64,000 nt of DNA from positions 1 through 64,000 of the forward strand of contig NZ_FWFY01000007.1 of the NCBI RefSeq assembly GCF_900172345.1, read 5' to 3'. The stretch comes from Limimaricola soesokkakensis. Its GTDB lineage: Bacteria; Pseudomonadota; Alphaproteobacteria; Rhodobacterales; Rhodobacteraceae. Position 1 is the stretch's first letter. Each line of letters begins with the position of its first letter. Made by a program: the position numbers and the translations under genes. Positions 24,867 to 45,356 of the stretch are shown here, one piece after another. Below the pieces are notes generated by a model that did not search any database, was not told where the DNA came from, and saw only the letters and a program-made list of their open reading frames with translations.

Positions 24867-25100
24867 GGCGGTCCTTTCCGACCGTTGCGTCAGTCCCGGT
24901 TGCCCCATGCGGTTGCGCGCCCGTGGGCGCAACGCGCTGACGGACGGCGATCCCCGCAATGGCCGGGGACCGGAAAGCCTGAGCTTCCGGGTTTGGGGCT
25001 CGCAATTACGGCGGATCGCGCTTCCGGTCAAGAGGCGGGAGTCGCTTGGAGGCGGCGGAAATGCATCCTAGAAGAGGGTCCCACCCCCGAGGAGAGCCGC

Positions 25101-43687: not shown

Positions 43688-43727
43688 GCCGGCCCGGACG
43701 CGCTCTGTCTGATGTATACCGCGCCAC

Positions 43728-43757
43728 GAAAAAGACGCGGGCCCTTGCGGACCCGCG
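43728..43757 (-). terminator. Terminator of the hsp20 gene
   Basis: Read on the minus strand, an 8-bp stem with one mismatch (CGCGGGTCC / GGGCCCGCG, GCAA loop) is followed by TCTTTTT. It lies about 80 nt past the hsp20 stop. Confidence 0.7.
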
Positions 43758-43838
43758 CCCTCGCGCGGTGCGGTCACGACCGGCGCCTCACCGACCGACC
43801 GCGTCGCGCACGGCCGGCTGGAGTGCCCGACCGTATTC

Positions 43839-44312
43839 TCAGTTGACCGATTTCTCCTCGATCAGGTTCGCGTCCTGCGGCTTCTGGCTCGAGATCTCGA
43901 TGCGGCGCGGCTTCAACGCTTCGGGCACCTCGCGGACCAAGTCGATATGCAACATGCCGTCGAGATGGCTGGCGCCCGTCACCTTCACGTGGTCGGCAAG
44001 GTGGAAGCGGCGCTCGAAGGCGCGCGTCGCGATGCCGCGATGCAGGAAAGTGCGGCCTTCCTGATCGTCCTCGGCCTTGCGCGCGGTCACGATCAGGGCG
44101 TTCTCGCGGACCTCGACGGCGAGGTCGTCGGCACCAAAGCCGGCAACGGCGATCGAGATGCGCCAGGCGCTCTCGTCGGTCTTCTCGATGTTGTAGGGCG
44201 GGTAGTTGTTCTGCGTGGTCTCGCCGGCAAGCACGCGGTCCATCAGGTCGGCAACCTGATCGAAGCCCACGGTGGCACGGTAGAGCGGGGCAAGATCGAA
44301 CGTACGCATCAT
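43839..44312 (-). CDS. Hsp20/alpha-crystallin small heat-shock chaperone
   Basis: 157 residues. The alpha-crystallin domain runs from YNIEKTDESAWRISIAVAGF to HIDLVREVPEALKPRRIEI, with the loop RGIATRAFERRFHLADHVKV typical of the IbpA/HspA class. The N-terminus MRTFDLAPLYRATVGFDQV is also class-typical. Two ATGs are adjacent (44312, 44309). The leader carries a probable ROSE-type RNA thermometer that hides the AGGA ribosome binding site, and a heat-shock-type promoter lies further up. It binds unfolding proteins in the cytoplasm. Confidence 0.92.
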   Translation of the reverse strand: MMRTFDLAPLYRATVGFDQVADLMDRVLAGETTQNNYPPYNIEKTDESAWRISIAVAGFGADDLAVEVRENALIVTARKAEDDQEGRTFLHRGIATRAFERRFHLADHVKVTGASHLDGMLHIDLVREVPEALKPRRIEISSQKPQDANLIEEKSVN

Positions 44313-44313
44313 G

Positions 44314-44400
44314 GTCATCCTCTGTCTCAAAGCGATAACGTCGTGATGGCCCTCCCGACGGGGGACGGGCCGGAGATCCGGAGCCCGGTCTGGCGCTCCG
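44314..44400 (-). promoter_or_regulatory. Probable ROSE-type RNA thermometer in the hsp20 leader
   Basis: The 87-nt leader can fold into three hairpins. Hairpin 1 is CGGAGC/GCTCCG (44379-44400). Hairpin 2 is GGCCC with inner CCC / GGG and GGGCC (44348-44371). Hairpin 3 pairs GUUAUCGCU (44331-44339) with AGGAUGAC (44314-44321), leaving the G of UCGCU unpaired. UYGCU opposite the AGGA Shine-Dalgarno with an odd G is the hallmark of ROSE thermometers in alphaproteobacterial small heat-shock genes. Melting at high temperature would free the ribosome site. Folding was judged by hand. Confidence 0.68.
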
Positions 44401-44407
44401 TAACTGC

Positions 44408-44437
44408 AATGTGGGTGGGGATTTTCGGGCTTTCAAG
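44408..44437 (-). promoter_or_regulatory. Candidate sigma-32-type promoter of hsp20
   Basis: On the minus strand CTTGAAA (44431-44437) and CCCACATT (44408-44415) are 15 nt apart, close to the heat-shock sigma consensus CTTGAAA-N14-CCCCATNT. Transcription would begin near 44401, which makes the leader start at hairpin 1 of the thermometer. Confidence 0.55.
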
Positions 44438-44455
44438 AGCCCCGCGGTCGCGATC

Positions 44456-45274
44456 TCAGGGGCGGATGAAGCGGGCGCCGATCTCGGTTCTCTGGCCGGC
44501 GCCGACCACCCGGACCTGACCCGTGGACAGGCCGCCGAAGGCGCCGGTGCCGCTCTCCATGCGGGCCCGCAGATCGGGCAGGGGCCGGTCGAGCGCGACG
44601 CCGATGGCAACGTTGCGGCCATCCATCTCGGCCTTGGCCGAGATCACAGAAACGATCCGCGCCCGGCCGCCCTCGAAGCTGAAGACAGGCGAACCCGAGG
44701 AGCCGTAATCGACATCGCAGCCCATCACCAGAAGGCCGTTCTCCTCGCCCAGCACGTCGCAGGTCTCCTGCAGCGACGGTGCCTCGGCTCGGTCATGCGC
44801 GTAGGAGACCACGCCGACCTCGGCGCCCGCGACCACCCCTTCCAACGTCTCGAACGGGGTGATGCGGGCCGAGCGGATCGGCTGCGCGAGTTCGAGAAGT
44901 GCCACGTCCTCGGCGCTGGCCGCGCCGGATCCGGTGCCGACGAAGGCGTATCCTTCCGGGGCCAGTGCCCGGCGCACCGAGCGGTAGGCCAGAGCCCGGC
45001 CGCCCCGCATCCCGGCCTTGAACTCGATCTCGGACGGATCGATCCGATCGCCGCTGTCGCGGTCGTAAAGACAATGCGCGGCGGTGAGCACGAGGTCGGG
45101 TGCGATCAGCGCCCCCGTGCAGAAGCCGCGGCCTCCGAGATCGAGACGCCCCACAGCCTCCCAGCCGCGCGCGTCATCGCCCGTCACCATCTCGACGAGA
45201 TCGTGACGATCCGCGCGCACCGGCAGCGACAGCGCCACCAGAACCAGCAAGGCGACCGCGATGGCCTGCCGCAT
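44456..45274 (-). CDS. Secreted trypsin-like serine protease
   Basis: 272 residues. A signal peptide (MRQAIAVALLVLVALSLPVR, cut near ADR) precedes an S1 domain: LTAAHCLY with the His, EDVALLEL with the Asp, and DYGSSGSPVFSF with the Ser in GSSGSP rather than GDSGGP. The His-Asp-Ser triad is complete. It is V8/glutamyl-endopeptidase-like in some respects. GGAGG precedes the ATG. The target is unknown; it is probably periplasmic or secreted. Confidence 0.85.
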   Translation of the reverse strand: MRQAIAVALLVLVALSLPVRADRHDLVEMVTGDDARGWEAVGRLDLGGRGFCTGALIAPDLVLTAAHCLYDRDSGDRIDPSEIEFKAGMRGGRALAYRSVRRALAPEGYAFVGTGSGAASAEDVALLELAQPIRSARITPFETLEGVVAGAEVGVVSYAHDRAEAPSLQETCDVLGEENGLLVMGCDVDYGSSGSPVFSFEGGRARIVSVISAKAEMDGRNVAIGVALDRPLPDLRARMESGTGAFGGLSTGQVRVVGAGQRTEIGARFIRP

Positions 45275-45356
45275 CTGCCCTCCTTCGGGTCGCCGGGCAG
45301 GGAGCACCCGGTTCGCAGGCGAGACTAGGCCAGACGGCGATGGCTTCAAAGGGCAA

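Follow-up and report, generated by a model that had tools for sequence, protein, structure and literature searches.

How does the leader in front of a small heat-shock gene control its expression, and does it do so by sensing heat? This question is raised by a leader of about 90 nt which ends at the hsp20 gene on the minus strand of a 64,000-nucleotide stretch of Limimaricola soesokkakensis DNA (hereafter the window). From the comparison of related sequences and their predicted folds we conclude, with considerable confidence, that this leader is an RNA thermometer of the ROSE type placed behind an RpoH-type promoter. The features on which the argument rests are listed below in the order of transcription; covariance model R1 is introduced in the section on conservation.

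44432..44437, minus strand: -35 element CTTGAA of an RpoH (sigma-32)-type promoter (read directly; 12/12 together with the -10 element)
44409..44415, minus strand: -10 element CCCACAT (read directly; consensus scoring)
44310..44403, minus strand: ROSE-type leader, predicted 5' UTR (match to covariance model R1 at 44403-44307, 59.8 bits)
44379..44400, minus strand: hairpin 1, CGGAGC-(bulged G)-CC ... GG-GCUCCG (fold and covariation; RNAalifold finds the same bulge without imposed structure)
44348..44371, minus strand: hairpin 2, GGCCC-(bulged G)-UCCC ... GGGA-GGGCC (fold and covariation; its counterpart is CCUGUCCA...GGAAGG of E. coli ibpA)
44314..44339, minus strand: hairpin 3, the proposed thermosensing hairpin with Shine-Dalgarno (SD) and anti-SD sequences (fold, covariation and raw pair counts)
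44331..44335, minus strand: anti-SD UCGCU, the ROSE motif U(U/C)GCU (UCGCU in 101/102 leaders, UUGCU in 1)
44318..44323, minus strand: SD sequence AGAGGA (position from the fold; AGGA in 101/102 leaders)
43839..44309, minus strand: hsp20, IbpA-type small heat-shock protein, most likely starting with ATGCGT at 44309 (Pfam HSP20; start by comparison)

Anatomy of the hsp20 leader

In the minimum-energy fold the leader forms three hairpins (44400-44379, 44371-44348 and 44339-44314), as the original prediction had it. The last of them places the terminal stem GUUAUC-G-CU / AG-GAUGAC over the SD and leaves the G of UCGCU (position 44333) unpaired; this arrangement, too, had been proposed beforehand, and it is found both in the sequence and in the fold, where hairpin 3 as a whole reads GUUAUC-G-CUUUG / CAGAG-GAUGAC with the SD AGAGGA inside. 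An extra helix of four pairs, which is absent from the conserved model, encloses hairpin 3 in the minimum-energy fold up to 50 °C. Taken alone, the stability of the whole leader exceeds chance only modestly: the folding energy of the stretch 44402-44303 is -41.5 kcal/mol, compared with -34.9 ± 3.67 kcal/mol for shuffled sequences (z = -1.80), 8 of the 200 shuffles being equally or more stable. When 12 leaders were folded together by RNAalifold with the structure left free, hairpins 1 and 3 were recovered with identical unpaired Gs and hairpin 2 in part.

Conservation and covariation across relatives

For the comparison, 124 loci were reduced to 102 distinct ortholog leaders by discarding paralogs (matches with less than 65% identity) and any leader that duplicated another over 90 nt. 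Two short motifs are almost universal in this set: UCGCU occurs in 101/102 leaders, the remaining one carrying UUGCU, and AGGA likewise in 101/102, the exception (L122) being AGGT. The gap between the two motifs (44335-44318) measures 9 nt in the window strain and in one further Limimaricola (G006), and 8 nt in the six other Limimaricola leaders.

A first alignment (A1, 34 rows) mixed different registers of the hairpin-1 loop, so that 15 single-register rows were chosen by eye for a second one (A2); covariance model R1 rests on 15 leaders, all of them from genera outside Limimaricola. Within the window, the hsp20 leader is its sole significant match (59.8 bits, E 2e-10), the next having an E-value of 9.5. 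All of the 102 distinct leaders except L123 and L124 were searched with R1, which matched every one of these 100 loci, 14 of which are rows of the model and 86 of which are unused in it. A search of the window strain's own genome returned the hsp20 leader with an E-value of 1.3e-8 and, up to E 10, only one other match, which lies in the fusA-tufA gap (L126, contig 22, 68271-68333; 20.7 bits, E 0.945) and which we take as chance.

At E 0.01, R1 finds a single match per genome in 91 of 100 sampled Rhodobacteraceae genomes. Among the nine others, one (G026) is without any hsp20 match, and four (G037, G040, G097 and G102) hold only a distant hsp20 with best E-values of 2.6e-28 to 3.1e-32. The remaining four (G015, G024, G036 and G052) hold a fairly close hsp20 (E 7.1e-47 to 1.3e-62) yet give no R1 match, so that the element may have been lost or have diverged there. 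Across the class, a search at E 0.1 with stricter filters matched 24/142 genomes, the own genome and one of the same family counted; an hsp20 gene stands at 26 of the 27 matched loci, L162 being without one, and the gene start at L165 was not resolved.

Covariation was assessed in a third alignment (A3) of 100 rows, which is fitted to R1 and in which 96.4% of the cells pair and two-sided changes occur in 18 of the 25 pairs. Its covariation score is 0.429, compared with 0.190 in shuffles, none of 500 reaching 0.429, and with at most 0.103 when the pairing partners are slid against each other. To count independent changes, Fitch parsimony was applied to a tree built from the hsp20 coding sequences. 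By this count, the six outer pairs of hairpin 1 underwent 23, 16, 19, 12, 12 and 21 two-sided changes, the outermost also 20 changes to unpaired, and the pairs of hairpin 2 between 2 and 17 each. Within hairpin 3, the pair above the SD core changed on both sides seven times and never to unpaired, and the outermost pair shows 9 two-sided changes and 10 to unpaired; the A-U pair directly below the core has a single two-sided change, and the next pair has none and 11 changes to unpaired. The two lower pairs of hairpin 3 are unpaired in 13/100 and 12/92 rows of A3. The four innermost SD/anti-SD pairs are uninformative because they hardly vary (in 0 to 1 of the 100 rows).

Independently of R1, the raw letters of 101 leaders can be read on either side of UYGCU and AGGA. 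The letter after UYGCU and the letter before AGGA form C-G in 70 leaders, U-A in 18 and U-G in 13, and are never mismatched (Fisher p 5.5e-12 for C-G/U-A/U-G, relatedness ignored). The letter before UYGCU and the letter after AGGA form A-U in 87, G-U in 10, G-C in 3 and U-U in 1 (p 0.002); the window itself has U-G above the core and A-U below it. Covariation in the terminal stem, for which the original prediction had suggested looking among relatives, is thus found. With covariation in all three hairpins, we regard the hairpin structure of the leader as well supported by comparison.

Relation to known ROSE elements

ROSE elements are described as 60 to over 100 nt long with two to four stem-loops (PMC10474464), and their motif is given as U(U/C)GCU (PMC3669281, PMC12857270). 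The present leader, with its roughly 90 nt and three hairpins, falls within this range; it precedes a small heat-shock gene, as ROSE elements do in alpha- and gammaproteobacteria, and its relatives belong to the Rhodobacteraceae. The 3'-proximal hairpin sets a conserved UCGCU against AGGA with an unpaired G, in agreement with the earlier claim of a ROSE-type UYGCU anti-SD with a non-canonical G.

The curated Rfam models, proposed originally as a check, did not bear this out at their cut-offs. ROSE_2 (RF01832) scores 20.9 bits at the window leader (E 0.041 in 351 bases) against a cut-off of 65, and the leader site is absent from the matches of this model in the whole genome. Rfam RF00435 (cut-off 45 bits), which we take to be the model of ROSE1 in front of Bradyrhizobium japonicum hspA, has no match at the leader in the genome-wide search and none at the cut-off in the window, its best match elsewhere having an E-value of 2.13; ROSE1 shares with our element that it is the leader of an alphaproteobacterial small heat-shock gene (PMC3669281), but differs in that its model finds no match here. 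At 20 loci of relatives (19 orthologs and one paralog), the Rfam ROSE models gave no match at their cut-offs.

We attribute this miss to a limit of the Rfam models because R1, built from Rhodobacteraceae, matches the E. coli ibpA leader over positions 1-93 with 32.3 bits and, in the 23 kb searched, an E-value of 2.5e-5; the ibpA leader itself scores 100.4 bits with ROSE_2. In the same 23 kb the E. coli ibpB leader is matched weakly (13.3 bits, E 0.17), and nothing else appears up to E 10. This cross-match strengthens the assignment. The E. coli ibpA element (RF01832, ROSE_2) likewise precedes an IbpA-type small heat-shock gene, has a hairpin 2 with a bulged G (CCUGUCC/GGAAGG) and ends with UCGCU opposite AGGA; it differs in hairpin 1, in the spacers and in GC content (0.52 as compared with 0.64 here). 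By anatomy and likeness, the hsp20 leader is thus a ROSE element, though below the curated cut-offs of Rfam, whose entries RF01832 and RF00435 look too narrow. The R1 distribution indicates that hsp20 is preceded, in 91 of the 100 family genomes sampled, by a ROSE element that can still be recognised on both sides of the alpha/gamma divide, and a model wider than those of Rfam would annotate these Rhodobacteraceae leaders.

Two further systems invite comparison. The short ROSE element of Pseudomonas ibpA combines a sigma-32-type promoter with a U(U/C)GCU anti-SD hairpin, as seen here, and is thermoresponsive by experiment; it has two hairpins in contrast to the three of the window leader (PMC3669281), and two is also the number in the paralog leader of our genome. 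In Nautella sp. R11, a related marine bacterium of the Roseobacter clade, ROSE-like motifs are mentioned before ibpA and hspD (PMC3230580), so that two small heat-shock genes carry them, and the Limimaricola genome also has two such leaders; in the portion of that article available, however, the motifs are given in one sentence, without alignment or test. ROSE-like motifs in the Roseobacter clade are consequently already known, and by analogy the window leader is a further example. A survey of the literature on ROSE elements or RNA thermometers and Rhodobacter or Roseobacter, based on titles and the beginnings of abstracts and covering subscription journals thinly, yielded nothing on the window element itself.

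Promoter and translation start

A heat-shock promoter written as CTTGAAA-N15-CCCACATT had been placed just upstream of the leader, and it can be read directly on the minus strand as CTTGAA (44437-44432), 16 nt and CCCACAT (44415-44409). Scored with CTTGAA-N16-CCCANAT, a motif drawn up after sight of the window sequence, the site reaches 12/12. The same score is attained in 65 of the 102 ortholog leaders and at least 10/12 in 100 of them, as compared with 5 of 510 mononucleotide shuffles at 10/12 or more; the spacing is 16 in 81 of these 100 leaders. The sigma-32 promoter of E. coli is given as NNCTTGAA-N(13-18)-CNCCATAT (PMC3669281). For Rhodobacter sphaeroides, the TTG of the -35 element is reported to matter for both RpoH factors, and a C at -37 and a T at -9 to be over-represented in RpoHI promoters (PMC3441632). 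From the position of the -10 element, transcription would start near 44402-44400, and a single consensus scan of 43700-44600 found no sigma-70-like promoter, which bears on a start inside the leader, named originally as an argument against a thermometer.

Upstream on the same strand, a gene for a trypsin-like protease (Pfam; 44456-45349, minus strand) ends 18 nt before the -35 element, and no terminator-like site was found between the two. An inverted repeat over the -35 element of the window strain (GGGCT..AGCCC) was dropped as weak: its length is between 3 and 5 bases among the eight Limimaricola, and 11 of 97 leaders have 5 bases or more.

The product of the downstream gene, translated from 44312, matches Pfam HSP20 with an E-value of 1.1e-17, and its identity to seven named Limimaricola matches is 92-99%. 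The wording "one base before the AUG" in the original prediction takes the AUG at 44318, which overlaps the SD, as the start codon. This AUG is in frame in all eight Limimaricola leaders including the window strain; as a start codon it is doubtful. Of 101 leaders, 32 have it in frame, 40 have it out of frame and 29 lack it, whereas an ATG matching that at 44309 (ATGCGT) is kept in 102/102. Because of this difference, translation most likely starts at 44309 and not at the SD-overlapping AUG, a choice that the Limimaricola leaders alone leave not settled. With the start at 44309, the SD AGAGGA (44323-44318) sits 8 nt upstream.

Predicted temperature response and proposed mechanism

The mechanism that we propose for the hsp20 leader, a ROSE-type thermometer, runs as follows. 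At growth temperature, hairpin 3 would hold the AGGA of the SD against UCGCU with one G unpaired, a pairing supported by comparison, and ribosomes would thereby be unable to start. Upon heating, RpoH would make more transcript, and the G-bulged helix would open locally and free the SD, while hairpins 1 and 2, judging from ROSE elements that have been studied, would stay folded; Hsp20 would then be produced in a burst. As in the original prediction, we infer a double heat control of hsp20 by sigma-32 and by RNA melting.

Folding calculations agree with the closed state. ViennaRNA puts the cost of opening all four AGGA bases at 3.48 kcal/mol at 25 °C, corresponding to about 0.3% open, so that the AGGA is predicted closed at this temperature, an open one having been named beforehand as an argument against a thermometer. 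The cost falls to 2.75 kcal/mol at 42 °C and 2.43 kcal/mol at 48 °C, and the predicted SD hairpin stays shut up to this temperature, which speaks against a thermometer. By this measure the window is mid-ranked among the 102 leaders, two of which are over half open at each temperature tried. In a temperature sweep of a 101-nt leader stretch, the pairing of each SD base remains at 87% or more even at 60 °C. The same calculations are equally flat for the established thermometer of E. coli ibpA, with opening costs of 1.59 kcal/mol at 25 °C and 1.84 kcal/mol at 42 °C and a flat sweep as well; for this reason the ViennaRNA sweep does not distinguish a thermometer from a permanently closed lock. A further point against a thermometer is that in Pseudomonas putida, changing a U-G to a C-G at the place where the window leader has C-G is reported to have largely removed the response (PMC3669281), but E. 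coli ibpA also carries UCGCU.

A bulged G in each hairpin and competing explanations

Each of the three hairpins has one unpaired G in its 5' arm, which follows a pyrimidine and precedes pyrimidines. In the model-fitted alignment, the letter at this place is G in 99/100 rows for hairpin 1 and in 100/100 for hairpins 2 and 3 alike; in hairpin 2, the letter following it is a G in 13 rows. Masking of the SD accounts for the unpaired G of hairpin 3 only. Because the G is near-invariant in hairpins away from the SD while the surrounding stems covary, the module might be read by something. We offer the tentative and rather doubtful idea that one and the same recognition module (a stem with a single unpaired G, Y-G-Y-Y facing purines) is repeated in all three hairpins and most likely read by Hsp20 through its equivalent of Arg93, so that the leader would be a thermometer and a sensor of chaperone level at once, and hairpins 1 and 2 would be putative binding sites rather than spacers. 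That the protein bound by this repeated module is Hsp20 is our guess. Should a protein bind the bulged-G module, a role open to experiment would emerge for the upstream hairpins of ROSE elements.

The same observations bear on a different reading, in which the leader works chiefly as a switch operated by a protein: Hsp20 would bind its own leader and repress translation, and release would come from titration of Hsp20 by unfolded protein, not from melting. E. coli IbpA is reported to repress its own translation via its 5' UTR, for which Arg93 is needed, and R93 and Y34 are described as well conserved in alphaproteobacterial IbpAs (PMC10474464). Equivalents of both residues are present in 100/100 ortholog proteins, the window's included, and in the paralog, and the near-invariant bulged G of hairpins 1 and 2 is left unexplained by SD masking. 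Binding of Hsp20 to the leader is nevertheless putative, and conservation of the two residues may have other causes. Moreover, the RNA on which the IbpA feedback was discovered is itself a thermometer, so that both are compatible and self-repression may act on top of melting. As a replacement for melting, we consider self-repression unlikely.

It is less likely still that the main role of the hairpins is to shield the transcript's 5' end or to adjust translation whatever the temperature, with no heat sensing. Hairpin 1 starts approximately at the predicted transcript start, the SD hairpin is predicted to be stable, and a 5' stem-loop can stabilise mRNA, a possibility raised for Pseudomonas ibpA (PMC3669281); however, the family as a whole conserves the ROSE-specific anti-SD with its bulged G and the covarying SD helix, and R1 also matches the counterpart in E. 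coli. Chance hairpins without function would fit the modest stability of the whole-leader fold, but can be dismissed with near certainty because of the specificity of R1, the covariation and the near-universal UCGCU/AGGA.

A second hsp20 leader and further sites

The genome holds a second hsp20 (contig 38, 65456-65898; L139, L166), whose leader carries GUCGCU...AGGAC. We examined 35 leaders of this paralog (30 and five further ones from Limimaricola). All 35 have UCGCU, together with AGGA in 31 and AGGG in 4, and all show the hairpin-1 pattern YGCC..GGG, the hairpin-2 pattern occurring in none; R1 gave no match at the four Limimaricola paralog loci searched (L002, L010, L014 and L016). Judged by these patterns, the paralog leader is a two-hairpin form of ROSE. 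Of the 31 motif-matching leaders, 30 have G-C as the pair flanking UCGCU/AGGA and one has A-U, whereas orthologs mostly have A-U, which amounts to covariation between the paralogs.

Searching the genome for the patterns ATCGCT..AGGAT..ATG and GTCGCT..AGGAC..ATG returned the two hsp20 leaders and four other sites, for which the frames downstream were translated. One of these (L138, contig 35, 25831-25851) reads GUCGCUUCGGAGGAC and stands immediately upstream of a 164-codon ORF that contains a CxxCH haem motif; judging from its pattern it could be a ROSE-like hairpin over an SD outside the heat-shock genes, or could have arisen by chance. Elsewhere in the window, the left end (1-215) holds the end of a 5S rRNA and a tRNA, and 24910-24961 on the minus strand matches the Rfam family named ffh.
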